37,927 nucleotides of DNA from Clostridia bacterium (GTDB lineage: Bacteria; Bacillota; Clostridia; Peptostreptococcales; Acidaminobacteraceae), in the NCBI GenBank assembly GCA_016938815.1, contig JAFGTX010000413.1, forward strand, positions 1-37,927, written 5' to 3'. The translations under genes were made by a program, and so were the position numbers. The notes beneath the pieces were generated by a model, which had not been told where the DNA came from, ran no database searches, and was given only the letters and a program-made list of their open reading frames with translations. Below, one piece after another: positions 10,390-28,438 of this stretch (its first letter is position 1; every line of letters begins with the position of its first letter).

Positions 10390-12051
10390 ATGTCATCATC
10401 ATTTTTAGGACTAAATATTTCCCTTTCGGGATTGTTTGCCAACCAAATGGCGCTAAGTGTGACGTCTCACAACGTGGCCAATGCGAATACAGAAGGTTAT
10501 TGTCGTCAAAGATTGGACATGACCCAATTTAGACCGGATATGGTCGCGGGTCTTGGGACGCTTGGTGTCGGTGTTGACGTTACTGCAGTCCAGCAAATTA
10601 GAGACGAATATACAGATGCCAAACTAAGAGACGAAACCTCTATGCTTGGAGAATGGGCTGCCAGAGCGGATACCCTAGCTCAAATAGAGGCGATTTTCAA
10701 CGAGCCATCCGACAGCTCCATCACACAGTTGATGGAGGATTTTTACTCAGCTATTCAAGAGCTCAGTGTCAATCCTGAAAACTTGACGGCGAGAACTTTG
10801 GTAAGACAGAGTTCCATTGCTTTAACGGATGGTGTTAATAGTATGTCTACATCCTTAAAGGAATTGCAGACGGATTTGAACTATGAATTCAACAACGCGG
10901 TGGAAGACATCAACCGAATTGCCGAAGAAATAGTAGGCATGAATAAGATCATTTACGAGTCTGAATTAGGGGTCGAAGGCAAAAACAACGACGTCAGAGA
11001 TCAAAGAAACGTGTTGATTGATGAACTTTCAGAATTTGTAGAAGTGGATTATTACGAGGACAACGAGGGACGTTTCCATTTGTCTGTTGGTGGTCATCTT
11101 TTGGTATCTCATTTTAGAGCGGATTCCTTAGAGGTGACGCAGCGTTCTTCTGACGCTAAAATAAATGAAAATGATGCAGATCAGCTGTATGAAGTACGTT
11201 GGTCTGATGGCAATAAATTAGTTTCCGGATCAGGAAGGTTAAAAGGCCTTCAGGATATGCGGGATAATATTGATGGAGATTATAAAGGCATTCCATACTA
11301 CGTGGATCAATTAGACAACTTCGTCGATACCCTTTCTGCTGAGATGAACAGAATTCATCAAGAGGGTTATGGTTTGGATGGAAGTACCGGCGTTGCCTTT
11401 TTCACCATCGACGGTATGAGTACCGAAGAGTTTGAAGACTATTTAAGGACAGAAGGCCTTGATGGTGGTGCTGGTGTCGATGTCACCAGTGCGGTGCTTG
11501 ATGGCGTGACTGAGGACATGGATTTTGATGAACGGTCAGAACTGATTCGAGACAACATGGATGCCATCCTAGCAGCCAATGAAGCTTATGAAAATAAATC
11601 GATCCGCCTTGTAGGAGACCAGTATTTGGTTGTCGATAAAATCAAGGCAGATCAACTTAGCATTTCTTCGGATATTTCAGATTTAAACAAGATTGCTTCT
11701 GCAGAGACGGAAGATGAAGAGCCTGGAGACGGCAGAAATATGCTGAATTTGTTGAACACCCGTCATAATGTTAAGCTGTATGACTGGGGTGCACCTGAGG
11801 ACTTTGTGAAGTCACTGGTTTCTAACTTAGGTGTTGATGCCAACCAAGCGAATAATGTGGTCAGTAATCAAGAGTTGTTGGTCAATTATTTTGAAACAAA
11901 GAAAGAATCGGTTTCAGGTGTTTCGCTAGATGAAGAGATGACCAATATGATCAAGTATCAAAATGCTTATAGTGCAAATGCACGTATGACCAACGTTTTT
12001 GATGAAATGTTGGATTTGGTTGTTAATAGATTAGGTACCGTAGGACGATAG
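10390..12051 (+). CDS. flgK: flagellar hook-associated protein FlgK (HAP1)
   Basis: LNISLSGLFANQMALSVTSHNVANANTEGYCRQR N-terminus and LDEEMTNMIKYQNAYSANARMTNVFDEMLDLVVNRLG C-terminus. Confidence 0.97.
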   Translation: MSSSFLGLNISLSGLFANQMALSVTSHNVANANTEGYCRQRLDMTQFRPDMVAGLGTLGVGVDVTAVQQIRDEYTDAKLRDETSMLGEWAARADTLAQIEAIFNEPSDSSITQLMEDFYSAIQELSVNPENLTARTLVRQSSIALTDGVNSMSTSLKELQTDLNYEFNNAVEDINRIAEEIVGMNKIIYESELGVEGKNNDVRDQRNVLIDELSEFVEVDYYEDNEGRFHLSVGGHLLVSHFRADSLEVTQRSSDAKINENDADQLYEVRWSDGNKLVSGSGRLKGLQDMRDNIDGDYKGIPYYVDQLDNFVDTLSAEMNRIHQEGYGLDGSTGVAFFTIDGMSTEEFEDYLRTEGLDGGAGVDVTSAVLDGVTEDMDFDERSELIRDNMDAILAANEAYENKSIRLVGDQYLVVDKIKADQLSISSDISDLNKIASAETEDEEPGDGRNMLNLLNTRHNVKLYDWGAPEDFVKSLVSNLGVDANQANNVVSNQELLVNYFETKKESVSGVSLDEEMTNMIKYQNAYSANARMTNVFDEMLDLVVNRLGTVGR

Positions 12052-12068: not shown

Positions 12069-15000
12069 ATGAGGATTACGAATAATTTACTCATTCAGAA
12101 TATGCTGTGGAATATGAATAATAACCTTGTTTCTATGAACGAACAGCAAACACAGCTTGCAACGGGTAAAAGGATTTCAAAACCTTCTGATGACCCGGTT
12201 GGAACGACACGCGTGATTAAAGTGAAATCGGATATCGCTGAAAACGAACAATACAAAGAAAATGTTAGTGACGCACAGTCGTGGTTGGATGTCAGCGAAA
12301 ACTCCCTCATGGACACGAAAGATATTTTACAGAGAATCAGGGAGTTGGCTGTTCAAGGCGCCAACGATACCTATACCGATGAGGAGACCGACAAGATTGC
12401 TAATGAAGTTAATCAATTATTGGAAGAACTGATTGTTAACGCAAATTCAACTATGGCAGGTCGATATCTATTTTCAGGTTTTAAAACGGATACAGAATTG
12501 ATGAATGAAGATGGCACCTATAAACTTGATATCACATCAGAGAAATTAAGCGACTTTGAAGCGATTGCTTATGAGATTGCGGTAGGTGAATATCTGGAGG
12601 TTGGTACAAATTACCTAGATGTCTATGGCATTGTACAAAATGATACAGCGCTTATGGACGCCTTTATATTTGATACTAAAAGTACGGGCAATGTTCAGTA
12701 TGCCGAAGCGACAGGGGATGCAGCGACGCATTCGAAAGCCCAGTTTCCCTTTAATTACAAACAAGACTTGCAAGCGGCGACAACAGAGGTAACGCTAGAT
12801 GGCGTAACATACACTTTGGAAGCCTCAAAATTGACGGGTAGAATCACCCAGTCTGAATTCATAGAAATTCTTTCGGATGCAAAACAGACGCTTCCAGCGC
12901 CTCCGGGACCACCGGCACCGACACCGACTTTAGGTGATGTAGCGGAAGTCTATTATGTGGCATCTGATGATCCGACCAATACGGCTGGTGAACTAGTCAT
13001 AGAAGCGAAGGCCTTTGGCCCGATAGTGATTGATATTTCAAATATGATTCCGGCAGCGACAACGCTCAGCTATGATGCGGCTTTGCCAGAAGTGGTCAAC
13101 GGTGTTGCAGAGAGCGTTCCTGTACATGGAAAAATTGAAGGCTATTTTGATTATAGCGTGAATCTTACTTCGGATAAAGATTTAGCCTTTACCATGGGTG
13201 GAATAACCTATAAGGTGGATACATCTGAATTTGATGGTACACTGACTGAAGCGGATTTTCTGGAATTAATTGATAACGCATCAGATAGTGCTGGCAATTT
13301 ACTGAAGGATTTTGTCAACGTCAATTTTGCATCTAAATTTGGCACCGTTGGCGTATTAACGTTAGAGACCAAAGTGCCATCTACTAGTACAACTTTGATA
13401 AAGGATAATGGGAATGCTTTCCCAGATTTCCCTAAAGTGACGGCTGGGGTAGATGGAGATGCGGGTGTAAGAGCTAGAATCAAAGGTGGCATTGATATCA
13501 CCCAAGATATCTCAGGTTCTGCAGTTGGTGATTTGTCCTTTACAATTGCTGGGAAAACCTATAGTGTAGACACGAGTACGATGGATGGCACACTAACTTC
13601 GGATCAAGTGTTGACTCTAATTGAAAATGCGAAAGATGCTAGTGGCAATCTGCTAAAGGATGCAGCGGAAGTAACTTATGTGAATGTATCCAATCCGTAT
13701 GAGCTTGTTATAGAAGCCAGGACACCAGCGGATGAGGTTCCAGAACTTGTTGACAACAGTGCTTTATTCGTGACAGGACCTTATTTAAGAGAAGGACAAG
13801 CTATTGAAGAAAATGCTTCGAGTGTTAATGCAAAATTGGAAGGTCCGATTGACCTTACTAAAGATATTTCTGCAGGAGCAGCTGACAGTTTGTCATTCAC
13901 CTTTGGAGACGAAACTTATACAGTCAATGTGTCCACGATGGATGGTACTTTGAGTGAAGAGGATTTCTTGAATGTTATCGAAGCAGCAAGTGACGGTCTA
14001 GGTGGCACGTTGAGTGATATAGCCTATGTTAGCTTTGGTAACGATGCGAATCCCTATAACCTAATTATTGAAGCGAAGAATCCAGATTCCTATTCGCCAA
14101 GTGCTGTGGATGCCAATGGGCTCTATATGGGAGGTACAACCTTAACTGATGGCGTCGCAGATATCGATCCAGTGACGACAAAAATTACTGGCACTTTGGA
14201 TATAGAAAAGGACATCACGGGAGCAACATTGAGTTATGCTATTGGTGGTGAGGTCTATACTGTGGATACATCTACCATGGATGGTACATTGACACTTAAT
14301 GATATTCAATCCTTAATAGAAAATGCGCCTGGTGGTGGTGGGGGGATATTGAGTGACGTGGCAACGGTAACAGTTAATACGACACTGAATCCCTATGAAT
14401 TTATCATTGAAGCAAAAGATGCACTGGATGATACAACGGTTGAAATCATAGATACCGGTAATATATATGTAAAAAGTCCTTATACCATAGGTGTAGGGAC
14501 GGTTGAACCTATAAAAGCTAAGATTGAGGGTACCTTTGATTATAGTGTGGATATTTCGGGAGAGTCGTTGACCTATACGGTAGATGGGACAACTTATACA
14601 GCAGATTTATCCAGTATGGATGGTACTTTGACAGAAGCTGAATTTTTAGAAGTTCTTAAGAATGCTTCGGATGGTTCGGATGGTAAGTTGAGCGATTGGA
14701 TGACGGTATCCTTTAGTTCGGTATCGGGAACAACGGGCACGTTGACCATTGAGCAGAAGACAGGCGCTGATGCGGTCGTTTCTGCAGGTGGGACTGTTGT
14801 TACAACGCCGACGGGTTATTCTGTAGCGCCAACCCTTACAGATGGCGTGGATGGTGTCATTGATACCAAAGCTATTGTGACCGGAACGGCTAAGATAACA
14901 GATGAAATGTTATCGGATCCTGTAACGGGTGTAGGGACTCAATCCTTTGTCATTACCTACAATGGAGAGACGGAGCGTATAGATATAGATTTATCTGAAA

Positions 15001-15536
15001 TTAATACGACAGAAGAATTAAAAGCGGCTATTGACTTGGAATTAAAGACAACCTTTGGTGACGACGGTGGTTCGCCGCCAATTAACAACGTAACTTTTGA
15101 TGTTGTTTTTGACGGTAGCAATGATGTGATTCAGTTTACAGCTGCAGGTAGAGATGATGGTAGTCAAGTATCTTTGAAAGTGGATGTCATCGTGTCGTCT
15201 AAGCCAAAATTAATGAAGGATATAGAGGATTTCACAACTGCTTTAACCAATAAAGATGATGAGGGTATCAATGAGTTTATCGGGAAATTGGATGAGCATT
15301 TAGACAATGTCTTATCGGTACTAGCGGGCATTGGTGCAAAAACAAACCGTTTAGATTTTGTTGAAAATAGGATTGACGATAATAACTTATCCATGACGGA
15401 GATTCTCAGTAAAGTTCAAGATATTGATTATGCCGCAGTGACTATCAAATTTAAAAGTTTAGAAAGTATCTATAAAGCTTCTTTATCGGTTGGCGCCAAA
15501 GTAATACAGCCAACATTGATTGATTTTCTCTCATAA
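12069..15536 (+). CDS. flgL: giant flagellar hook-associated protein FlgL (HAP3) with repeat-expanded insert
   Basis: N-terminal MRITNNLLIQNMLWNMNNNLVSMNEQQTQLATGKRISKPSDDPVGTTR...MAGRYLFSGFKT and matching C-terminal helical domain; 1155 aa with about 820 aa of repeats in between. Confidence 0.95.
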   Translation: MRITNNLLIQNMLWNMNNNLVSMNEQQTQLATGKRISKPSDDPVGTTRVIKVKSDIAENEQYKENVSDAQSWLDVSENSLMDTKDILQRIRELAVQGANDTYTDEETDKIANEVNQLLEELIVNANSTMAGRYLFSGFKTDTELMNEDGTYKLDITSEKLSDFEAIAYEIAVGEYLEVGTNYLDVYGIVQNDTALMDAFIFDTKSTGNVQYAEATGDAATHSKAQFPFNYKQDLQAATTEVTLDGVTYTLEASKLTGRITQSEFIEILSDAKQTLPAPPGPPAPTPTLGDVAEVYYVASDDPTNTAGELVIEAKAFGPIVIDISNMIPAATTLSYDAALPEVVNGVAESVPVHGKIEGYFDYSVNLTSDKDLAFTMGGITYKVDTSEFDGTLTEADFLELIDNASDSAGNLLKDFVNVNFASKFGTVGVLTLETKVPSTSTTLIKDNGNAFPDFPKVTAGVDGDAGVRARIKGGIDITQDISGSAVGDLSFTIAGKTYSVDTSTMDGTLTSDQVLTLIENAKDASGNLLKDAAEVTYVNVSNPYELVIEARTPADEVPELVDNSALFVTGPYLREGQAIEENASSVNAKLEGPIDLTKDISAGAADSLSFTFGDETYTVNVSTMDGTLSEEDFLNVIEAASDGLGGTLSDIAYVSFGNDANPYNLIIEAKNPDSYSPSAVDANGLYMGGTTLTDGVADIDPVTTKITGTLDIEKDITGATLSYAIGGEVYTVDTSTMDGTLTLNDIQSLIENAPGGGGGILSDVATVTVNTTLNPYEFIIEAKDALDDTTVEIIDTGNIYVKSPYTIGVGTVEPIKAKIEGTFDYSVDISGESLTYTVDGTTYTADLSSMDGTLTEAEFLEVLKNASDGSDGKLSDWMTVSFSSVSGTTGTLTIEQKTGADAVVSAGGTVVTTPTGYSVAPTLTDGVDGVIDTKAIVTGTAKITDEMLSDPVTGVGTQSFVITYNGETERIDIDLSEINTTEELKAAIDLELKTTFGDDGGSPPINNVTFDVVFDGSNDVIQFTAAGRDDGSQVSLKVDVIVSSKPKLMKDIEDFTTALTNKDDEGINEFIGKLDEHLDNVLSVLAGIGAKTNRLDFVENRIDDNNLSMTEILSKVQDIDYAAVTIKFKSLESIYKASLSVGAKVIQPTLIDFLS
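12744..15200 (+). repeat. tandem ~115-aa coding repeats within flgL
   Basis: In-frame units starting at about 12744 (degenerate), 13122, 13467, 13824, 14172, 14511 and 14859 (degenerate), 339-357 nt each for the clear ones. Shared motif [VI]xxKI.G..D...DISG...LS[FY]T..G.TY[TS]VD[TV]STMDGTL(T/S)... Confidence 0.9.
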
Positions 15537-15578: not shown

Positions 15579-16151
15579 ATGAAACTGATGATTAGAAGTC
15601 AGCCCGCTATTTTAGCCTGGGAAACTAAGAATGCTCAGCAAACAACACCTTCTATGCCCAAAGAACCTCTTAATTTAGAAATTGAAGAACCACAAATGGA
15701 GATGGAAACGACGAAATCGGTTATCCATATCGATCAAGATCAGTGTTTTAACGAGTCTGGATTGAAGAACAACAGTGCCTTTCTAGAAGACATGGTAGCA
15801 CGCAGCAAGCAAGCGGTCATGGAAGGTATCGCGCATCGGGTGGAGGAAGGTAATCAGATGATGGCCATCGAGACTGGTCAGGATGCCATTGCAGAACAAG
15901 CTTCTTACAATGCGTGGGAACGATTTTATCATGAATTTGGGCTGGTAACGATGCCTATGAGTCGGCCGATTATTACGGTGGAAGAGGGCGATGTCAGTTA
16001 CAATTTCAAACGGGGTTCTGTACGGGTGCTCAATGGGCCTTTCCAAATTGATCGTGGGACCTATGAGCCTGGAAAAGTTGAGTATTACATGAAACAAAAA
16101 AATTCAATTACAATTACTCCTGTTGGAGATGAGGTAGATATAACTTTATAG
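15579..16151 (+). CDS. DUF6470 (YviE-like) family protein
   Basis: Position between flgL and fliW; MKLMIRSQPAILAWET and central helical segment resemble YviE-type proteins. Confidence 0.75.
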   Translation: MKLMIRSQPAILAWETKNAQQTTPSMPKEPLNLEIEEPQMEMETTKSVIHIDQDQCFNESGLKNNSAFLEDMVARSKQAVMEGIAHRVEEGNQMMAIETGQDAIAEQASYNAWERFYHEFGLVTMPMSRPIITVEEGDVSYNFKRGSVRVLNGPFQIDRGTYEPGKVEYYMKQKNSITITPVGDEVDITL

Positions 16152-16979: not shown

Positions 16980-19208
16980 ATGAGAATTAATAACAACTTA
17001 ATGGCGATGAACACTCATCGTGCGATGAATTCAGTATTGGGCTCTCAGTCCAAATCAATGGAAAAATTATCATCAGGTTATAGAATCAACCGTGCTGGCG
17101 ATGACGCTGCTGGTTTAGCTATTTCCGAAAAAATGAGAGGCCAAATCAGAGGTTTGAACCAAGCTTCTAGAAACTCTCAAGATGCTATCTCAATGGTACA
17201 AACTGCTGAGGGTGCATTAAACGAAACTCAAAACATTCTACAAAGAATGAGAGAGTTAGCAGTACAATCTGCCAACGATACTAACGTAAACGCTGACCGT
17301 GATGCGATTCAAAACGAGATTGACCAGTTAGCTACAGAAATCACTAGAATTTCTACTACAACTGAGTTCAACACTCAAAAATTATTGGATGGTTCATTAC
17401 AAAACGTTCAGTTCCAAATCGGTGCTAATGAAAGCCAAAACATGAGAATGTCTGTTGGTGACATGAGTGCAGCTTCGCTTAAAGTCGTAACAGATTCTGT
17501 TGTAATGGGCGAACATGGTGATGCTATCACTGATGTTGAAGCAGATCTTGACTTTGATATCGAAAATGCTGTATTGACTGCAACTTCAGGTGGCGCAGTA
17601 GCTGCTAAGTTAAACGCAACTGCAAGTGGCGTGACTACTACTGGTTTTGTACCTGATATTACTATGCAATTTGCTGAAGGTGTTTCAAACCCTAACAGCG
17701 TAACATTCAATGGCGCTAACGAAATCGCTTTCTCTACAAGTGGCGACATTAACTGGGATCAATTGGTTATCTCAGGTGTGGCTTCAGGTAGCGCAGGTAT
17801 TACTATTTCGAATAATGGTGATACATTGACTATTGATATTGTAGTTATTGCTGCAAGTGGCGCGGCTGGTACAACTACTCATACAATTTCTGATGAGATT
17901 CAAGCGAATTCAGGCGGTGGCTACGTATACGAAGCTCACGGTATGAAATTTGAATTGACAGCGGAAGATTTCGCGTTATTAAGTAGTGGTGGCGATGTAA
18001 CAATCAATTTTGCAGCATCTGGACTTGGTGTTTCTGGTTCGGTACTTGACGTAACTGGTGATGTTGCAACAGCAAGTAATTTCAAGAATAATAACCTTAC
18101 TGGTTCAGGTAGTACTTACACTGCATTTGCAACTGATATTACGTTTACTGAATCTGATCCACAGTTTGATGCAGCGATTACAAACATCAGAATCTCTGGT
18201 GCAAACCTGTACGATTCAGGTGGTACAATTACAGTAACAATTTCAGGCGCAAATGGAACCATTTCTTCAGATGTATATACTATCAGTAGCGGTGGTAACT
18301 GGTCTGGTAACACATTCACTTACGACAACCACGGGGTATCATTTACAATCAATATTAATCATGCTTCTGGATTCGCTGTGGATCAAGACGTAACTTATGC
18401 TGCTGAGTCATACACTGTAGGTAATGCTAACCCATTAGCTTTTACAATTACTGATGATGCGGGCACAGATATTAACCTAAGCGTAACAATGGACGCTGGC
18501 GAATACTCACTTCAAGATATCGCAGACGCGATCAATGCAGCGGGTTCTGGATCTGCAGGTACATTTGGATCTGATATTGCTGTTGTGGACAGTGGTACAA
18601 TCAAATTGAGATCACAATCCACAGGAGCAGATTCTATTATCAACGTTACTGCAGCTGGTGGTTTCTCAGGTATCTTCGATGCAGCGAAAGACGGTGCTGG
18701 TGCTGACACTAGTATCAAGTTAACACTGACTATTGATGGAACAGAGACAATCGTTCAGTCAGGTATTGCACCTACTGCAACTTCTGTAACATTTACTGAA
18801 TCAGGTGGCGCAACTGCTACATTCACTTTAGCAGGCAACATCAATTTAGATAACATTGACATCAGTGATGAATTCAGCGCTTCGTCAATCACTAGAGAAG
18901 TAACTGGTATTGATATTTCTTCTAGAGATGCAGCTTCTTCAGCGATTACTGTAATCAACAATGCGTTGACTACTGTTTCTACTGAAAGATCTAAGTTAGG
19001 TGCTATCCAAAACAGACTTGAGCATACAATTGCTAACCTTGATACTTCTGCCGAAAACTTACAAGCATCAGAATCAAGAATTAGAGACGTAGACATGGCT
19101 AAAGAAATGATGGAATTCACTAAGAACAACATCCTTCAACAAGCTGCTCAATCTATGTTGGCACAAGCTAACCAAGCACCTCAAGGCGTGCTTCAATTGC
19201 TTAGATAG
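16980..19208 (+). CDS. fliC: flagellin
   Basis: [80 protein letters not shown] and matching C-terminus. AAGGAGGA precedes ATG 16980; the ORF-track start at 16872 lies in the leader. Confidence 0.97.
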
Positions 19209-19359: not shown

Positions 19360-19968
19360 ATGAGAGTATTATTGAATAGCAACGAGTTTATGCAGGTGGA
19401 TAGTGGCAATTTGAGTTATTTTTTTGAGAAACTGGCACTCATCAATCGCTTATTTTCTGATTATAAGATTTATTTAGAGTGTGATGGTGAGGTTGTTGAG
19501 GATGACTACAATGTCTATCTTTCCAAAAACATCGGCCAAAAGGAATACCTTTATATTAAAATTTTTGATGAATTTGACAACGCTGTCAACATGACAGAAG
19601 TATTGACAGAAGCATTGACGATTTTAGAAAATGACATACTTCAGCTCGCAGATGAGTTCTATCTCAACGACTCATCGACTCTATGGAATGCTCTGATAGA
19701 TGTTCTTGGCGGTTTGGATCGCGTATTCTCCATGGTAGATATCACGTCTCATACGATGACCAAGGAAGTGAATTTTACACAATTATTCGAGGGAATCAAC
19801 GCTTATGTGTCAACCTTGAATGAAAAGTTTCTCTTATTGACGGATTACATGAAGATAAAGGATACGGTTGCCATTGCGGACATGCTAAAATGGGAGGTTG
19901 CGAAAACCTTAGAAGCCATGAACAACTTATTTGCAGACGTTTTAATGGGAGGTAGTTATGAAGAATAG
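19360..19968 (+). CDS. uncharacterised protein paired with the downstream Maf gene (start uncertain: 19309, GTG 19336 or 19360)
   Basis: Predicted helical ORF whose end overlaps the maf start by 11 nt. No family recognised. Confidence 0.65.
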   Translation: MRVLLNSNEFMQVDSGNLSYFFEKLALINRLFSDYKIYLECDGEVVEDDYNVYLSKNIGQKEYLYIKIFDEFDNAVNMTEVLTEALTILENDILQLADEFYLNDSSTLWNALIDVLGGLDRVFSMVDITSHTMTKEVNFTQLFEGINAYVSTLNEKFLLLTDYMKIKDTVAIADMLKWEVAKTLEAMNNLFADVLMGGSYEE

Positions 19969-21829
19969 TAACGCAATCATTTTGAAAGAACAACATCCTA
20001 ATATTTATAAAGCGGTTATGGAAATTTCGACTGAACATTCTCGCTACCATGTGACCAAAGAAAGCGACAATCTTGTGATTGAATATGAGGGTGTGGCGCG
20101 TCATGTCCATAGTAGTTATTCAGTGGATTATGAGTGTGAAGTGATTTTTGGAGACCATGATGATATCGATAAATATGAAAAAGTGATTTTTTTAGGCGTC
20201 GGCCTCGGTCATCAAGTGGATTACTTGGTTAATCATTATAAGAAAAAAGATATTTTTCTTTATGAGCCAAATCTAGAGGTTTTTAATGCGTATTTGGATA
20301 CAAAAGATATACCATATAAATGGGTTAAAGGTATTTGTGTCGGCCCTGCGGAAGGCGGCATTGTAAGGTTTCTAGAGACTATAGTTAGAAACAATAATGA
20401 ATCTGTCTTGATTATAGAATTGCCAACTTATAAAAATATTTTTAGAGAAGAAGTCGAACGATTCTACTCGATTTTTCAAAAAGCAGTTGGTGAAAAAAGA
20501 CGTAACATTCACACCAACTATGCTTTTCAGAAAAAGTGGATTGCTAATAGTTTGATTAATTTTTGTGATGTTATAGACACGCCTAATTTCATGGACCCAT
20601 CTATTACCATGTTTAAAAATAAGCCCGTCATCATTGCGGCTTCAGGGCCTTCTATTACCGATGAGATTGATAATCTCAAAAAAATTAAGGCAGAGGGTTT
20701 GGCCTATATCTTTGCGGTGGGTTCCGCTATTACTATTTTAATGAAGCATGGTGTGAAACCAGATGCAACTTTTTCTTATGATCCCGGTGAGACGCAACAT
20801 TTAAATCATGATATTTTAAGAGAAAACAAAATTACTGATATTCCTTTGGTGTTTGGTAGTTCGGTAGGAACTAAGGTTGTCAATCAATATCCAGGCCCCA
20901 AAATTCATATGGTTACCACACAAGATACAACCGCTTTTTATTATCTGAATAAAAATAAGGCGGAACTGATGTCTGATGCACCCTCTATTGCGGTTATTTG
21001 TTTGCAGCTGGTATCAAAATTGGGGTGCAATCCAATTGTATTCGCAGGTCAGAATTTGGCTTATAGAGACAAAAAATGGTATGCAGAGGGTCAAAGAAAA
21101 GGTTATGAGCGACTTAATCAGGACAATCAAGCTCAAAATAACATATTTACAGTGACCAACGTTTATGGAGAAGAAGTGAGCACAACAGGTTCTCTGTTAA
21201 ATTTCAAGCAAGCTTTGGAATTTGTCATTGCAAGACATAAGGGTCCGGATTATTTGAATACGACCAAATACGGTGCACAAATTGAAGGAACCACTTATGT
21301 TGAGTTGGATCAAATCATAGAAGAGCGTTTGACGGTGCCAGTGGTTGATCCGGACTGGTATAAGAAAATCCCTTACGAGTCTTATGGGGTAGACCAAATC
21401 AAAGAGAAAAATGACATTATGTTCCAAGCGATGCCAAAGTTTGAGCAGACGGTGGTTGATATTCAAAAGGGTATTAAAAAACTGGAACGACTGATTAAAA
21501 ATAACAATATGAAACAGGCGGAAAAATCCTTTAAGGACTTAGACGATCTGTTCGATCAATTGAAAAAGAATAGAATTTATAATGTTTATATTGTTCCGAT
21601 GAACCGCGTGCATTACGAAAAGTTGGGTAGCGAAATTGCACGGGCGAAAGCCAAGAGTGTCGATACGGCCAAAGCAAAGATGATGTTAGAGTCGTATACA
21701 AAGTACATTAATATTTGCAAAGTGGATTATATGAAGCTTAGACCGATACTTTTCAAATTCATTAAGCATCTTCACAACATTTTAGGTTTACTGGAGAAAA
21801 AGCAGCAAGCACGAAGTCAACAAGCCTAG
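19958..21829 (+). CDS. motility accessory factor (Maf)/DUF115 glycosyltransferase, likely a flagellin nonulosonate transferase
   Basis: 623 aa; KVIFLGVGLGHQVDYLVNHY, PVIIAASGPSITDEIDNLKKIKAEGLAYIFAVGSAITILMKHGVKPD, VFAGQNLAY are Maf/MptE-like motifs. Confidence 0.92.
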   Translation: MKNSNAIILKEQHPNIYKAVMEISTEHSRYHVTKESDNLVIEYEGVARHVHSSYSVDYECEVIFGDHDDIDKYEKVIFLGVGLGHQVDYLVNHYKKKDIFLYEPNLEVFNAYLDTKDIPYKWVKGICVGPAEGGIVRFLETIVRNNNESVLIIELPTYKNIFREEVERFYSIFQKAVGEKRRNIHTNYAFQKKWIANSLINFCDVIDTPNFMDPSITMFKNKPVIIAASGPSITDEIDNLKKIKAEGLAYIFAVGSAITILMKHGVKPDATFSYDPGETQHLNHDILRENKITDIPLVFGSSVGTKVVNQYPGPKIHMVTTQDTTAFYYLNKNKAELMSDAPSIAVICLQLVSKLGCNPIVFAGQNLAYRDKKWYAEGQRKGYERLNQDNQAQNNIFTVTNVYGEEVSTTGSLLNFKQALEFVIARHKGPDYLNTTKYGAQIEGTTYVELDQIIEERLTVPVVDPDWYKKIPYESYGVDQIKEKNDIMFQAMPKFEQTVVDIQKGIKKLERLIKNNNMKQAEKSFKDLDDLFDQLKKNRIYNVYIVPMNRVHYEKLGSEIARAKAKSVDTAKAKMMLESYTKYINICKVDYMKLRPILFKFIKHLHNILGLLEKKQQARSQQA

Positions 21830-21839
21830 TGGGGGTTTT

Positions 21840-22388
21840 ATGAGTCAATTGAGAAAGCATTTAAAAAGAACACTAGGAACACGCCTCCGGTCCGCGGTGG
21901 CACGGCGAAAATTGGGGCAGTTTGGTGAGGGTATTTTTATTGAAAAAAACGTTCAATTTATGCGTTATCCTCAAAACATTACCATTGGCGGAGATGTTAT
22001 TTTAAAAGAAGGTGCTAAGATTTGCCCCTGTAATGAAAAAGCAAAAATTAGTATAGGGGAGCGAACTACGATTGGCTACCACACCTTTCTTTTTGCATCC
22101 GAACACATATCGATTGGGTCTGACTGCATGATTGCGCCTTTTGTGTACATTGTCGATAGCGATCATCGTACAAAGAAAGGGATCAACATGAACTTACAGG
22201 GCAATGAAACGGCGCCCATTCATATTGGTAATGATGTATGGATTGCCAGTAATGTTACTATCTTAAAAGGTGTTACGATTCATGATGGAGCTGTAATTGC
22301 AGCGAATTCTGTAGTGACTAAGGATGTACCATCCAATAAAATTTACGGTGGAACGCCGGCAAAGGAGATTGGGGAAAGAAATGAGTAG
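21840..22388 (+). CDS. hexapeptide-repeat (left-handed beta-helix) acyltransferase
   Basis: GERTTIGYHTFLFASEHISIGSDCMIAPFVYIVDSDHRT and HIGNDVWIASNVTILKGVTIHDGAVIAANSVVTKDVPSNKIYGGTPAKEIG. Confidence 0.9.
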   Translation: MSQLRKHLKRTLGTRLRSAVARRKLGQFGEGIFIEKNVQFMRYPQNITIGGDVILKEGAKICPCNEKAKISIGERTTIGYHTFLFASEHISIGSDCMIAPFVYIVDSDHRTKKGINMNLQGNETAPIHIGNDVWIASNVTILKGVTIHDGAVIAANSVVTKDVPSNKIYGGTPAKEIGERNE

Positions 22389-23091
22389 AATTGGAGCAAT
22401 TGTTTTATCCAGATATTCTTCCACAAGGCTTCCGGGAAAAGCTTTGATGGAAATAGAGAACAAGAAAATCTTGGAGTATATTATCGAACGTCTACAGACG
22501 GTTTTACCACTTCATGATATTGTCATAGCGACATCAGACGAAGATTCGGACAATCAGATTGAGTGTTTTTGTCAAGAACGCGGCATTCGCTGCTATAGAG
22601 GTGATTTGGATGATGTGGCAAAACGGTTTTACGATGCCGCAAGGTTTGGTGGATTTGATTACGCGATTCGTATCAATGGAGACAACGTTTTAATAGATAC
22701 GGATGTTTTAAAAGATATGATTGATATATGCAAAACGAAGGCCTATGACTTTCTTTCCAATGTCAAAGGCAGAACCTTTCCAAAGGGTATGAGCGTTGAA
22801 ATTGTCAATGTGCCTTACTATGAAGCTTTGCTGGATGTCATCGAGACTTCGGACTATTTTAAAGAACATGTGATGGTGTATCTGTATGAACACGGATCGC
22901 AAGAAAGGCATTATTATTACATGAATACAACTTTTCCTGAGGCTGCAGGCATCCAGTTTGCGCTGGATACAAAGGAAGATTTTGAGAATATACGGCGTAT
23001 TATTTCTAAGTTTAAGAGACCGCACTTTGAATATAATATGAAGGAAATCTTTGAAATCTGGAAGGAGAATACTTGTGACCATAAACTTTAA
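22381..23091 (+). CDS. SpsF-like cytidylyltransferase (putative CMP-nonulosonate activation)
   Basis: MSRIGAIVLSRYSSTRLPGKALMEIENKKILEYIIERLQ...DIVIATSDEDSDNQIECFCQERGIRCYRGDLDDVAKRF...AIRINGDNVLID. ATG 22381 overlaps the previous stop. Confidence 0.88.
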   Translation: MSRIGAIVLSRYSSTRLPGKALMEIENKKILEYIIERLQTVLPLHDIVIATSDEDSDNQIECFCQERGIRCYRGDLDDVAKRFYDAARFGGFDYAIRINGDNVLIDTDVLKDMIDICKTKAYDFLSNVKGRTFPKGMSVEIVNVPYYEALLDVIETSDYFKEHVMVYLYEHGSQERHYYYMNTTFPEAAGIQFALDTKEDFENIRRIISKFKRPHFEYNMKEIFEIWKENTCDHKL

Positions 23092-24091
23092 AGGTAAGCA
23101 TGGCCCCTTGTTGATTGCTGAAATCGGTGGTAATCATGAAGGGGATTTTGAGTATGCCAAGAGATTGACGCAATTGGCGATTGATACAGATGTTGATTAT
23201 ATTAAATTTCAACTTTATAGTGGTGATACATTGGTTTCTTCCGTGGAGAATCCAGATAGGAACAAACATTTTAAAAAATTTGAATTGACTAAGGCGCAAA
23301 ATATTGAATTGGCGGAGATGGTAAAGGCTGCTGGTATTGGTTATATGGCGTCGGTGTGGGATGAAGAAGTATTGTCGTGGATTGATCCTTACATGGATAT
23401 TTACAAAATTGGAAGCGGTGATTTGACGGCTTTTCCGGTGTTGAAAACAACGAGTCTCTATCGCAAACCGATGATTGTCTCGACGGGTCTTTCAACAGAG
23501 GGTGATGTTTTAGAAGTGGTAGATTACATCCGTTCATTGGATGATTATTATAAGTCAGAGGATAGTTTGGCGTTGTTACAGTGTACTAGCATGTATCCGA
23601 TTGCCATGTCGGATGCCAATCTTGACGTCGTTCAGCGCTTAAAAGATCTGACGGGTTTACCGGTAGGGTATTCAGATCATACGGTTGGCAGTCAGGCGCT
23701 CAAATACGCCTATGCGATGGGTGCTCAGATTTTAGAGTTTCACTTTACAGATACCAGAGAGGGCAAACTCTTTAGAGACCATCAGGTGTCGTTGATTCCG
23801 TCGGAAGTCAAAGGTTTGATTGAGGAGCTGGCGATGATTCAGGTGTTGAAGGGCAATCCGGTTAAAGAACCACTGGAAATCGAGAAGGAAGCCAATCATG
23901 TGGAGACCTTTAGAAGAGCGGTTTATCCGAGTCGAGATATCCAAGCTGGTGAAATCTTGACAAAGGAAAATTTAACGGTGCTTAGACCCAATCGAGGTAT
24001 TGATGCTCGGGCATTTGACCAAGTTTTAGGCAAAGTTATCAAGGAAGACGTGAAGAAGCACCAACGCTTATCCTGGGAGATGATGAAATGA
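23075..24091 (+). CDS. neuB: N-acetylneuraminate/pseudaminate/legionaminate synthase family protein (NeuB-like)
   Basis: LLIAEIGGNHEGDFEYAKRLTQLAIDTDVDYIKFQLY, YKIGSGDLTAFPVLK, GYSDHTVGSQALKYAYAMGAQILEFHFT, C-terminal SAF-like domain. GTG 23075 follows AAGGAG with 7-nt spacing. Confidence 0.93.
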   Translation: MTINFKGKHGPLLIAEIGGNHEGDFEYAKRLTQLAIDTDVDYIKFQLYSGDTLVSSVENPDRNKHFKKFELTKAQNIELAEMVKAAGIGYMASVWDEEVLSWIDPYMDIYKIGSGDLTAFPVLKTTSLYRKPMIVSTGLSTEGDVLEVVDYIRSLDDYYKSEDSLALLQCTSMYPIAMSDANLDVVQRLKDLTGLPVGYSDHTVGSQALKYAYAMGAQILEFHFTDTREGKLFRDHQVSLIPSEVKGLIEELAMIQVLKGNPVKEPLEIEKEANHVETFRRAVYPSRDIQAGEILTKENLTVLRPNRGIDARAFDQVLGKVIKEDVKKHQRLSWEMMK

Positions 24092-24723
24092 TTTTTCCTT
24101 TAACACAATTTTACATTAAAACATGGCGGCCAAGTTTTAATGGTTTTTTGACGAGAATGCTTTACTCGGGCAAACGCGTTAAAATAGGTAAAAATTTCAA
24201 AGCGGCAACCGTGCCTAAAATGATTGTCGATGCCAATTGCCAATTGATTATTGGAGACAACGTAGAATTTAGACGTCATGTGGAGGTGCGGAGTCATGGG
24301 CAATCTCAAATCCAGATTGAAGACAACGTAAGAATCGACAGAGGTGTACGTTTGCTGGCAGCCAATGATTCTAGAATCACCTTAAAAAAGGGTGCGCGTG
24401 TAGGACTTTATACCGTCTTTAACGGTGGTAGTTCCATTACCATCGGGGAGAAGGTCCTAATATCGGGTTTCGTTTATCTACAAACCAGTATGCATGCGTT
24501 TGAAGATAAGAAACGCTACATTCAGGATCAAGGCTATCATCATGCGCCGATTACGTTGGAGGATGGTGCGTGGCTGGGGACGCATGTGGTGATTATGCCG
24601 GGTGTTACCCTTGGAAAAGGCACCGTTGTGGGCAGCAATGCGGTTGTGACAAAGTCATTTGATGATAATGAAGTGGTTATAGGTATTCCTGGAAAAGCAT
24701 TGGAGAAAAATTATGAAGAATAG
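24088..24723 (+). CDS. hexapeptide-repeat acyltransferase (second, divergent)
   Basis: Hexapeptide repeats (ITIGEKVLISGFVYLQTSMHAFEDKKR, LEDGAWLGTHVVIMPGVTLGKGTVVGSNAVVTKSFDDNEVVIGIPGKAL). Confidence 0.9.
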   Translation: MIFPLTQFYIKTWRPSFNGFLTRMLYSGKRVKIGKNFKAATVPKMIVDANCQLIIGDNVEFRRHVEVRSHGQSQIQIEDNVRIDRGVRLLAANDSRITLKKGARVGLYTVFNGGSSITIGEKVLISGFVYLQTSMHAFEDKKRYIQDQGYHHAPITLEDGAWLGTHVVIMPGVTLGKGTVVGSNAVVTKSFDDNEVVIGIPGKALEKNYEE

Positions 24724-26101
24724 TCCTGTGGTTACAATCTATATTACCAATTATAATTATGCCAAATATATTCAGCAGAGTATTGAAAGTGTGCTGAAAC
24801 AGACTTATAAGGATTATGAACTCATCATCATTGATGATGGGTCAACGGATAACAGTAAGGAAATCATTGAACAATACCGTGAATATCCCAATGTCCGGAT
24901 TGTTTATCAAAAGAATAAAGGGCTTAATATCACTAATAACATTGCTATGCGTTTGGCTTCGGGTCAGTATCTCGTTCGGTTGGACGCGGATGATTATTGG
25001 GATATAGAATACTTGGAAAAAGTGGTGGAGAAAATGGAATCAGACCCTGAAATCGGTTTGGTGTTCCCTGACTACTACTACGTGGATTCAGATGGTAAGA
25101 TGACAGGTGTAGAAAAGCGTTTTAACTTTGAAGAGGAAGTCACTTTGTATGATTTACCGGCGCATGGCGCCTGTACGCTTATTAGACTTGAGTTTCTCAG
25201 ACGTCTTGGTGGATACAATGAAAGTTTTGCATGTCAAGATGGATACGACCTGTGGCTGAAATTCATCAGTAGCCATAAAGTGGCAAACGTCAATACACCT
25301 CTATTCTATTACAGAAGGCACGGCAATAACCTTACGACAAATGAAGAGCGTATTTTGAGTACTCGTAAAAGGATAAAGCAGACGTTCTTAGAAGATCATA
25401 TAGGTGATATACCTAAGACGGTAGCGATTATTCCGATTAGAAGTAATTATATTGGTAAAGAGAATTGGCCGCTATTTCAAGTGGATCACCAAACGGTGGT
25501 TGAGAAAAAGGTGGCTATGCTTGAACGCGTAAAGGGTATTGAGAAAATTGTCGTTACCAGTTCTGAAAAGGTTTTACTGGAGACGTTGACAGACTTGTTT
25601 AAAGATAACTCGCGTGTTGTAATTTCGGAACGTCCAAGCAGTTCATCGCAATATAATGAATCATTGGTGGCGACACATCAATATTTATTGAGCAAATACG
25701 CCTATGATTTTGACGATATCAAACATGTGTTGACGGTTTCTCTAGAATATCCTTTGGTAAAAGAAGATACGGTGGAAGAACTTATTAACACGATGGTCAT
25801 TTTTGGTGCAGATGCAACCATCAGTGTAAGACCAAACAGTCAAATGCACTACCAGCATACTGGTAATGGCTTGCAACCGATTTTAAATCAAGAGCGATTT
25901 ACCAAGTTGGAGCGTGAAGCACTTTATACAGGTTCGGGTGGATTGATTCTCACGAACAAAGAAATGCTGATTCGTCAAAATAAATTGATTGTTGGACGGA
26001 TTAGTCATGTTATTGTAGAGGAAAAGGCGGCACTATGTATTAATAGTGCGTTTAATTTTGAGATTTATAAAATGCTTATTGGTACGGGAGATAAATTGTA
26101 A
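24713..26101 (+). CDS. fusion: GT2 glycosyltransferase + C-terminal NeuA-like (CMP-sugar synthetase-like) domain
   Basis: N-terminal GT-A: VTIYITNYNYAKYIQQSIESVLKQTYKDYELIIIDDGSTDNSKEII, VRLDADDYWD. C-terminal (from about 25410): VAIIPIRSNYIGKENWPLFQVDHQTVVEKKVAMLERVKGIEKIVVTSSEKVLLETLTDLF...VISERPS. Confidence 0.82.
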   Translation: MKNSPVVTIYITNYNYAKYIQQSIESVLKQTYKDYELIIIDDGSTDNSKEIIEQYREYPNVRIVYQKNKGLNITNNIAMRLASGQYLVRLDADDYWDIEYLEKVVEKMESDPEIGLVFPDYYYVDSDGKMTGVEKRFNFEEEVTLYDLPAHGACTLIRLEFLRRLGGYNESFACQDGYDLWLKFISSHKVANVNTPLFYYRRHGNNLTTNEERILSTRKRIKQTFLEDHIGDIPKTVAIIPIRSNYIGKENWPLFQVDHQTVVEKKVAMLERVKGIEKIVVTSSEKVLLETLTDLFKDNSRVVISERPSSSSQYNESLVATHQYLLSKYAYDFDDIKHVLTVSLEYPLVKEDTVEELINTMVIFGADATISVRPNSQMHYQHTGNGLQPILNQERFTKLEREALYTGSGGLILTNKEMLIRQNKLIVGRISHVIVEEKAALCINSAFNFEIYKMLIGTGDKL

Positions 26102-26116
26102 AATTGGAGGCAACGT

Positions 26117-27436
26117 ATGGATTTGTATTCTGAATTGTTAAGTAAAAAAACAAAAATATCAATTGTTGGATTGGGTTATGTGGGTTTGCCTATTGCGGTG
26201 GCGTTTGCAAAAAAAGTGGATGTTATTGGATTCGACATCAGTAAGGAAAAAGTAGAATTATACCAATCGGGAGTTGATGTCACCCAAGAAGTCGGTGATG
26301 CGGCTATACAAGCATCTACTGTGCATTTTACATACGAAGAACACGATTTAAAGGAAGCGAATTTTCATATCGTTGCGGTGCCAACACCGGTGAGCACCGA
26401 TCGCACACCGGACCTAGGCGCTGTAAAGTCGGCGACGGAAATTGTCGGTCGGAATTTAAAAGAAGGTGCGATTGTTGTATTTGAATCCACTGTTTATCCG
26501 GGTGTTACAGAAGATGTGTGTATTCCTATTCTAGAAGCAGCATCAGGACTTGTGTGTGGCAAATCTTTTAAAGTGGGTTACTCTCCAGAGCGGATTAATC
26601 CAGGGGACCAGATTCATCGCTTGGAAACAATCGTTAAAGTTGTATCGGGTATGGATGAGGCGTCTTTAGATCAAATTGCTAAAGTTTATGAAATTGTAGT
26701 AGAAGCGGGTGTTTACAAAGCGGAGTCTATCAAGGTGGCAGAGGCGGCAAAGGTCATTGAAAACTCTCAAAGGGATATCAACATTGCATTTATGAATGAA
26801 CTCTCGATTATATTCAATAAAATGGGCATAGATACAAAATCGGTACTAAAGGCATCGGCAACCAAATGGAATTTTTTGAACTTTACACCAGGACTTGTCG
26901 GTGGACATTGTATTGGTGTCGATCCCTATTATTTGACTTATAAGGCGGAGCAATTGGGCTATCATTCTCAAATCATTTTGTCTGGAAGACGGATTAATGA
27001 TGATATGGGGAAATATGTGGCAGAGAATATTATCAAACAACTGATCAAAGCTGGTATTTCTATTGCTGAAGCGAAGGTGGCTGTTTTAGGCATTACTTTT
27101 AAGGAAAATTGCCCAGATATCAGAAACACAAAAGTAATCGATATCATTGAGGAATTAAAAGAATATGGCATTCGGCCCATTGTAGCAGATCCGCAAGCAA
27201 ACCCAAAAGATGTTATGGAGGCCTATCGGTTGCAATTAATCGCTTTTGATAGGGTGGAAAATATGGATGCTGTTGTGATTGCGGTAAATCATCAGGAATT
27301 TACATCTATGGACAAGGTAGCCGTTGGCAAAATGTTTGGTGAAAAGCCTCACAATAGGAAAGTGCTAATAGATGTTAAGGGTATGCTTGATAGAAATGCG
27401 TATGAAGCATTAGGATATAACTATTGGCGACTATAG
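26117..27436 (+). CDS. nucleotide sugar dehydrogenase (UDP-GlcNAc/UDP-GalNAc 6-dehydrogenase, WbpA/TviB-like)
   Basis: ISIVGLGYVGLPIAVAFAKKVDVIGFDIS, FESTVYPGVTEDVCIPILE, GLVGGHCIGVDPYYLTYKAEQLGYHSQIILSGRRINDDMG, VAVLGITFKENCPDIRNTKVIDI. Confidence 0.95.
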   Translation: MDLYSELLSKKTKISIVGLGYVGLPIAVAFAKKVDVIGFDISKEKVELYQSGVDVTQEVGDAAIQASTVHFTYEEHDLKEANFHIVAVPTPVSTDRTPDLGAVKSATEIVGRNLKEGAIVVFESTVYPGVTEDVCIPILEAASGLVCGKSFKVGYSPERINPGDQIHRLETIVKVVSGMDEASLDQIAKVYEIVVEAGVYKAESIKVAEAAKVIENSQRDINIAFMNELSIIFNKMGIDTKSVLKASATKWNFLNFTPGLVGGHCIGVDPYYLTYKAEQLGYHSQIILSGRRINDDMGKYVAENIIKQLIKAGISIAEAKVAVLGITFKENCPDIRNTKVIDIIEELKEYGIRPIVADPQANPKDVMEAYRLQLIAFDRVENMDAVVIAVNHQEFTSMDKVAVGKMFGEKPHNRKVLIDVKGMLDRNAYEALGYNYWRL

Positions 27437-27454
27437 AGGAGATGAAATAGAAAC

Positions 27455-28438
27455 ATGTTAGAAGAACTAAAATTTAGTAAAGATGCCGTGTTCTTAGTGA
27501 CAGGTGGTGCTGGTTTTATTGGTTCAAATCTTTGTGAAGCACTTTTGAATATGAATTGTCGTGTGAGGTGCTTAGATAACTTTTCCACTGGATTTATGGG
27601 CAATGTTGAGCCTTTTCTTTCGAGTGAAAAGTTCGAATTGATTAACGGGGATATTCGCGATTATGATGTTTGTTTGAAGGCGTGCACAGATGTGACTTAT
27701 GTCTTGCATCAAGCGGCATGGGGCAGTGTTCCTAGAAGTATTGAAATGCCAATTTTGTATGATGATATCAATATAAAAGGTACACTAAATATGATGGAAG
27801 CGGCACGTGTACAAGGGGTTTCAAAATTTGTTTATGCTTCTAGCTCATCGGTTTATGGCGATAATGACACTTTGCCCAAAGCAGAGGGCCATGAAGGACA
27901 AGTATTAGCCCCTTACGCATTGACGAAAAAGGTAAATGAGGAGTATGGTCGTTTATATAAGTCACTTTATGATTTGGATACTTATGGCCTTCGATACTTC
28001 AATGTTTTTGGTCGCAAACAGTCACCTGATGGCGCATATGCAGCGGTTATTCCTAAATTTATTCAGATGCTGTTAAGAAATGAATCGCCAACGATTAACG
28101 GCGATGGAAAACAATCACGAGATTTCACCTATATAGATAATGTTATAGAAGCTAACCTTAGAGCCTGCTTAGCATCAAGTGAAGCGGCGGGTCAAGCATA
28201 TAATGTCGCTTATGGTGGCAGAGAATATCTGATAGATGTATACCAATTGATTTGCAAAGCGCTGGATAAAGATTTAGAACCGCATTTTGGACCGGATAGA
28301 GCAGGAGATATTAAACATAGTAATGCTGATATTTCAAAGGCGAGAAAATATTTGAAATACAATCCAAAGTGGGATTTTGAAAGAGGTATTCAAGCGGCTA
28401 TCGATTGGTATGTTGAGGCACTTGGTCAAAACAATTAA
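27455..28438 (+). CDS. NAD-dependent epimerase/dehydratase, SDR family (TviC/WbpP UDP-GlcNAc 4-epimerase-like)
   Basis: FLVTGGAGFIGSNLCEALL, VLHQAAWGSVPRSIEMPILYDDINIKGTLNMMEAA, SSSVYGD, YALTKKVNEEYGRLY. Confidence 0.93.
   Translation: MLEELKFSKDAVFLVTGGAGFIGSNLCEALLNMNCRVRCLDNFSTGFMGNVEPFLSSEKFELINGDIRDYDVCLKACTDVTYVLHQAAWGSVPRSIEMPILYDDINIKGTLNMMEAARVQGVSKFVYASSSSVYGDNDTLPKAEGHEGQVLAPYALTKKVNEEYGRLYKSLYDLDTYGLRYFNVFGRKQSPDGAYAAVIPKFIQMLLRNESPTINGDGKQSRDFTYIDNVIEANLRACLASSEAAGQAYNVAYGGREYLIDVYQLICKALDKDLEPHFGPDRAGDIKHSNADISKARKYLKYNPKWDFERGIQAAIDWYVEALGQNN

Follow-up and report, generated by a model that had tools for sequence, protein, structure and literature searches.

The flagellar late-gene cluster on contig JAFGTX010000413.1 of a Clostridia draft genome (GCA_016938815.1; the window analysed is positions 1 to 37,927, a stretch of 37,927 nucleotides) carries a giant flgL, encoding a hook-filament junction protein of 1155 amino acids (aa), close to four times as large as an ordinary FlgL. 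Its helical ends enclose an in-frame tandem array of six domains of ~115 aa each, which spans aa ~226-930 (~705 aa). We favour, with moderate confidence, a reading in which this is a functional FlgL that gained a larger outer region (D2) through the tandem duplication of a single pre-existing surface domain, and in which the array acts as a mechanical coat matched to a bulky flagellin.

The identification as FlgL, first made in a preliminary description from the sequence alone, stands on flagellar synteny and on TIGR02550, the FlgL equivalog model, which is the top-ranking model for the 1155-aa protein (E 2e-78, 264.2 bits against a cut-off of 127.2) and has a second matching stretch over 14934-15530. 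Flagellin_N (PF00669) matches aa 3-140 (E 3.5e-25), while PF00700 at aa 1072-1153 falls slightly under its cut-off in the protein scan (E 5e-4, 20.8 against 23) and passes it for the same terminus in the genome scan. Profiles and structural model both place flagellin-like helical regions at the N and C termini, enclosing the insert, and the frame is uninterrupted over the whole gene.

The five repeat starts proposed in the preliminary description all keep the reading frame and mark off units 2-6 (Table 1), and the internal repetition it had reported is significant: pairwise BLASTP among these units gives 32-46% identity (best segment per pair, E 7e-12 to 1e-32), and a search with unit 3 gives the remaining four core units 86, 76, 54 and 47 bits, against a top score of 6.1 in 500 shuffles of the insert. 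Whole-protein self-BLAST returned no off-diagonal matches, a consequence of how BLAST reports the full-length self match, and unit-versus-unit comparison was used instead. A profile hidden Markov model (HMM) of the unit, iterated on FlgLs of the family, places units at aa 225-331, 356-460, 471-576, 591-695, 706-805 and 819-926. The first of these, suspected earlier as a divergent flanking unit at ~12744, is recovered with an independent E-value (iE) of 4e-20 and occupies the position of the sole unit in one-unit relatives (aa ~215-318); on profile and position it is a divergent but genuine copy. The array claimed earlier therefore holds, at six units and ~705 aa rather than the ~820 aa first estimated. 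The unit profile found nothing significant besides FlgL in the source genome, and the unit HMM had no match at E<=10 in the flagellin of the same cluster (~742 aa).

Per subunit, the array adds ~73 kDa and a net charge of -75; it is 20% Ser+Thr and contains no cysteine. An EF-hand resemblance at aa 851-865 (E 0.06) was treated as chance, because the loop spacing is off by one (by eye) and the motif is lost in the other units. At the DNA level no array was found by Tandem Repeats Finder, the longest exact repeat is 16 nucleotides, and the units are 42-53% identical. Because the DNA repeats are this short and the units this diverged, the six copies differ enough in sequence for short reads to tell them apart, and the assembly-driven expansion against which the preliminary description had cautioned was rejected.

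The segment at ~14859, once counted as a seventh, degenerate unit, is not a detectable copy: the unit HMM does not match it, hhalign gives a probability of 6.6% for unit versus segment, and it was rejected as a repeat on sequence. It corresponds to D2b, a separate domain that closes the outer region in the unit-bearing FlgLs of the family that were compared. Flagellin_IN (PF07196) matches it only at E 0.49 in the scan of the source genome. The order of strands and helix in the D2b model resembles that of the unit, and the two may share an ancient fold, a candidate kinship only.

AlphaFold2, run on unit 3 alone with 30 units as input, predicts a compact strand-helix-strand domain of three strands, a helix and four strands (predicted local distance difference test, pLDDT, 91.6; predicted template-modelling score, pTM, 0.84). 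A Pfam scan of the 30 units found no family for the unit, and its profile found no significant relative among sequences of known structure. PF07196 had no match at E<=1 in the 30 units, and in the source genome it left the units unmatched even at E<=10. No adhesin, immunoglobulin (Ig)-like or carbohydrate-binding Pfam family rose above cut-off in the 30, with isolated sub-cut-off matches to Big_2 and Big_3_5 (E about 0.01). Flagellin_IN, Ig-like and adhesin domains were rejected as identities for the units on these grounds. In a Foldseek search of the unit model against the Protein Data Bank (PDB; 350,542 chains), the first seven ranks went without exception to chains from flagellar caps or junctions (E 0.016-0.094, template-modelling score 0.39-0.49), a run that is hard to ascribe to chance. 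Global confidence in the full-length model is low (pLDDT 69.5), but its helical ends are predicted confidently and beta-beta-alpha-beta-beta blocks recur in it; its top three matches are a Geovibrio flagellin and both 744-750-residue chains of the Campylobacter jejuni junction complex 9gsx (E 8e-10, 6e-9). Prediction and comparison with solved junction structures bear out the earlier description of the insert as beta-rich and, together with the profile matches, make its surface exposure likely.

The source is a Fusibacteraceae-type clostridium, and a survey of its relatives revealed a graded series. (Genomes are given by our labels where needed; G015 stands for Fusibacter sp. 3D3, G046 for F. 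ferrireducens Q10-2 and G020 for F. paucivorans DSM 12116. For the named genomes a single-protein scan had no matches, and an alignment query gave matches.) Within Fusibacteraceae, FlgLs with no unit are ~300 aa long, those with one unit 526-550 aa, with two 645 and 767 aa, with three 802 and 805 aa, and the six-unit protein of the source genome 1155 aa. The typical FlgL of the family (~530 aa) joins helical D0-D1 ends to a pair of outer domains, the unit (D2a) and D2b, and the first unit invariably begins 8-26 residues past aa 200, adjoining D1. Among the cultured relatives, F. paucivorans has one unit and Fusibacter sp. 3D3 has two. Units from different species are 20-35% identical. The FlgL of F. 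ferrireducens (975 aa; L053:3073-5997) holds an intact unit plus a first unit seemingly split by an insert of ~300 aa (profile positions 2-56 at aa 215-275 and 21-84 at aa 580-645), and so seems, from its sequence, to have been enlarged by nesting and not by tandem copying.

With homologous domains in tandem in its exposed middle, and with relatives that have fewer copies, the source FlgL resembles giant axial proteins built by tandem duplication of an outer domain. In the unit tree, source units 2-6 group in a single clade (100/99) that takes in no unit of any other species, and therefore arose within the source lineage; forcing unit 1 to join them is not rejected (p 0.26). Units 2 and 3 of G011 likewise form a clade (98/97). 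In a tree of the FlgL core, from which the repeats were left out, G055 falls within a one-unit clade (99/93), while G011, G004, F. ferrireducens and the pair of source and 3D3 lie apart. Multi-unit FlgLs are thus scattered on the core tree, so that tandem amplification occurred several times; on these phylogenies independent amplification is well supported in three cases, the source, G011 and G055.

A profile search of 397 genomes of the order extended the unit beyond the family and beyond FlgL. It occurs in FlgL of a second family (f5; G083, G091), and one FlgL-type unit lies in the outer region of FlgK in G239 (L095:851-2896) and G198 (L096), with iE 1e-11 and 1e-9. The flagellins of G239 (853 aa; L094:187-2745) and G130 (617 aa; L097) each carry a long stretch of outer region, the unit included, in two near-identical copies; by their sequence these are recent internal duplications, which makes flagellin, as well as FlgL, a protein in which the unit has been duplicated. 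Further flagellin matches were weaker, and a match to a transporter in G149 is probably false. Since it is present in FlgL, FlgK and flagellin, the unit is an outer domain in general use among the flagellar axial proteins of the order. In a sample of the phylum most listed FlgLs are ~290-480 aa long, and only two of four long frames are truly enlarged, in G473 (660 aa) and G487 (559 aa); those of G580 (862) and G624 (774) are overlong stop-to-stop frames around FlgLs of 289 and 297 aa. A supposed fused double flagellin in G024 is in fact two separate genes. The G473 FlgL (L190), from another family, carries three outer domains in tandem that resemble one another (22-36% identity, E 4e-15 to 2e-7); two of them end in a GTDxLExxLGI motif, and the sequence of this FlgL suggests that the tandem-expansion route is not unique to Fusibacteraceae.

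What such an array might do is suggested by the filament beyond it. Across 24 genomes FlgL length follows flagellin length (Spearman 0.62, p 0.0014), and median flagellin length is 720 with a multi-unit FlgL versus 430 with a single-unit one (p 0.014); flagellin lengths were taken from stop-to-stop frames and are hence slightly too long. FlgK is not expanded, the main-cluster FlgKs of the family being of normal length (~525-596 aa), and a joint expansion of FlgK with FlgL was rejected. It is because FlgL length follows flagellin length that we favour a coat suited to a filament with a bulky surface, and a mechanical role is the most likely one for the array.

We propose that D2a was amplified stepwise to six copies ahead of D2b in the source lineage. 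Each FlgL would be exported unfolded through the flagellar channel, its helical ends building the ring and its small contiguous units folding singly, in turn, outside the cell; by analogy with other bacteria, eleven subunits would make up the distal ring of the junction. Since the array is anchored to D1 at either end, it must loop back or overlie neighbours, and the seven outer domains would accordingly be arranged as a loop or lie folded across adjacent subunits, not as a single radial spoke. The result would be a thick, acidic, beta-rich collar of ~0.8 MDa in total per ring, which may continue the outer-domain surface of the filament across the joint and stiffen or shield it. More tentatively, and with rather less probability than the coat itself, unit number may be a size dial that co-evolves with flagellin bulk, gain and loss matching the diameter and stiffness of the joint to the filament.

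Several observations weigh against the matched coat. The size association weakens under independent contrasts (r 0.41, p 0.049; p 0.07-0.13 under other choices), with only four independent pairs available on supported branches, and is suggestive, not established; genomes of the F. paucivorans type pair flagellins of ~840-870 aa with a one-unit FlgL. The ring stoichiometry is carried over from other phyla. The fold matches of the unit in the PDB are individually sub-significant, none reaching E<=0.001, and inter-domain confidence in the full-length model is low (pTM 0.47), so that the arrangement of the domains cannot be read from it.

A low but appreciable probability attaches to an expansion that is near-neutral, or that merely changes the exposed surface, as a defence against flagellotropic phage or predators, for instance. 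Duplication comes easily to tandem domains, which would be tolerated at an exposed site; gains have been repeated and independent in the family, conservation of the unit between species is loose, and F. ferrireducens reached a large FlgL by another route. Yet the six copies are intact and in frame while their DNA similarity has been lost with age, FlgK shows no comparable drift, and ~700 additional residues are a standing export cost. In addition, pN/pS (nonsynonymous to synonymous differences) is 0.51-0.72 in all unit pairs, with pS at 0.63-0.81 and near saturation, and pN below pS in every pair is a weak sign of constraint.

Unlikely as well is an array that serves as a binding surface, an adhesin or a glycan scaffold glycosylated through Maf and nonulosonate enzymes, for attachment or recognition and not for mechanics. 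Adhesins commonly contain tandem small beta domains, the array is rich in Ser and Thr and strongly acidic, and a Maf-type glycosyltransferase, NeuB, a cytidylyltransferase, acetyltransferases and nucleotide-sugar enzymes are encoded downstream. Against this, the 30 units match none of the relevant families above cut-off, and by analogy only 11 copies per flagellum are expected, near the cell, versus flagellins in their thousands; flagellin is the main target of Maf systems, and the FlgL core is acidic too. Among the roles first suggested for the insert, the structural collar accordingly fits best, the adhesin has no family match to speak for it, and the glycan scaffold fits circumstantially, through the downstream genes and the Ser+Thr content.

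It is very improbable that the giant FlgL is a specialised or accessory protein and not the main junction protein. The genome does hold a second FlgL of normal size (FlgL2, 325 aa), on contigs that also carry a FliD-like open reading frame (630 aa), a flagellin (474-482 aa) and a second FlgK, and G024 has a similar second set (its FlgL sister, 100/100). The giant gene, though, lies within a full canonical cluster with its own FlgN chaperone, FlgK, FliW, flagellin, FliD and FliS, the enlarged type is the main-cluster FlgL in most relatives, and the second set has the look of another flagellar system, with contamination (1.76%) as the less likely alternative. An assembly or annotation artefact has a negligible chance: the source genome is a fragmented draft of 438 contigs, but the DNA divergence described above and an open frame throughout flgL speak against it, as do the unit and its copy ladder in independently assembled relatives, isolates included.

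The coat reading has precedents in part. FlgK and FlgL of Salmonella and Campylobacter jejuni each form an 11-subunit layer with D2 outward (PMC12221982), and in Xanthomonas FlgL an outer D2 is joined to D1 (PMC6155364). Canonical FlgLs with a D2 (Xanthomonas, Legionella; PMC6155364, 5ZIZ, 7C7Z) share the D0-D1 architecture, and their outer domain is inserted at the corresponding place, but they have a single small D2 without tandem units. The closest likeness in size is C. jejuni FlgL (750 aa, 'bulky D2', PDB 9gsx, PMC12221982), whose outer region is also oversized for a junction protein and whose chains are among the top three fold matches of the full-length model; it has one bulky D2, no repeat array is described in the available part of that paper, and the unit profile has no sequence match to the chain. 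Giant flagellins with outer-domain duplication have been described in Bermanella and Oleibacter (PMC6248924), where the exposed middle of a D0-D1 axial protein has likewise grown stepwise by tandem duplication, of DE domains, with intermediate copy numbers in the lineage. Those are filament proteins with two DE copies, whereas here a junction FlgL, of which only 11 subunits per flagellum would be expected, has up to six copies of a different domain. Flagellin_IN (PF07196) of FliD and flagellins shares with the predicted fold the strand-strand-helix-strand-strand plan inserted in axial proteins, and FliD outer domains are among the best, sub-significant, fold matches, but the family profile itself reaches only D2b, and there no better than E 0.49. 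In the flagellin sheaths of enterohaemorrhagic Escherichia coli (EHEC) H7 and others (PMC8931119), outer domains also pack into a surface coat, one that alters waveform and tumbling; that coat is made of flagellin and runs the length of the filament, unlike a single junction ring. Large FlgLs as such were already known, since NCBIfam FlgL models span 510 to 827 positions, and C. jejuni FlgL shows that large FlgL inserts are not without precedent; for a tandem-amplified FlgL with a graded copy series we found no report in the literature searched (open-licence papers only).

The gene order (contig label C173) is that of an ordinary flagellar late-gene cluster, with the giant flgL in canonical position (Table 1). 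The sugar genes downstream of the flagellin gene comprise a Maf-type glycosyltransferase followed by NeuB, a cytidylyltransferase and two hexapeptide acetyltransferases, with a glycosyltransferase 2 and a nucleotide-sugar dehydrogenase/epimerase, and judged by these assignments they are likely to serve nonulosonate glycosylation of flagellin. The second axial gene set lies elsewhere in the genome (G000:C356:1-6565, L069; G000:C278:24000-29157, L192), with the N terminus of FlgL2 cut by a contig end and the second FlgK on C278; similar sets are present in G024:C116 and G011:C30, and it is probably a second flagellar system.

Table 1. Positions in the window of the flgL gene, its domains and the surrounding flagellar cluster.
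Feature	Position	Strand	Description
flgN	9847	+	upstream of flgK and flgL
flgK	10390..12051	+	553 aa, normal length; TIGR02492 E 5e-106
flgL	12069..15536	+	1155 aa, hook-filament junction protein; TIGR02550 and Flagellin_N matches, flagellar neighbours
FlgL D0-D1 N-terminal helices and beginning of D1 beta region	12069..12668	+	aa 1-200; PF00669; model helices 2-32, 43-98, 104-125
Unit 1	12741..13061	+	aa 225-331, divergent; family unit HMM iE 3.8e-20; branch 1.53 in unit tree
Unit 2	13122..13466	+	115 aa; 32-44% identity to units 3-6, BLASTP E 1e-26 to 7e-12; HMM iE 4.6e-26
Unit 3	13467..13823	+	119 aa; BLASTP, unit HMM, single-unit model
Unit 4	13824..14171	+	116 aa; BLASTP, unit HMM
Unit 5	14172..14510	+	113 aa; BLASTP, unit HMM
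Unit 6	14511..14858	+	116 aa; BLASTP, unit HMM
D2b	14859..15206	+	separate outer domain; model beta-beta-alpha-beta-beta-beta (DSSP 957-1043); weak Flagellin_IN resemblance 14943-15035
FlgL C-terminal D1-D0 helices	15207..15533	+	aa 1047-1155; TIGR02550, PF00700; model helices 1047-1154
DUF6470 protein	15579-16151	+	E 1.5e-42; between flgL and fliW
fliW	16167	+	in flagellar cluster
Flagellin	16980..19208	+	~742 aa from in-frame ATG at 16980; large outer region; PF00669 E 7e-46, PF00700 E 2e-30
Maf-type glycosyltransferase and nonulosonate/sugar genes	19958-28438	+	downstream of flagellin gene
fliD	28498	+	
fliS	30770	+	
flaG	31322	+	

FlgL is commonly regarded as a thin adaptor that does not vary. 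A family in which its outer region goes stepwise from no domain to six shows that the junction between hook and filament is itself capable of evolving as a surface, and the mechanism proposed here for the array is a plausible one for a role that is putative. Because cultured Fusibacter species differ in copy number, they offer a natural series for the role of outer domains at this joint, be it mechanical matching, shielding or display.

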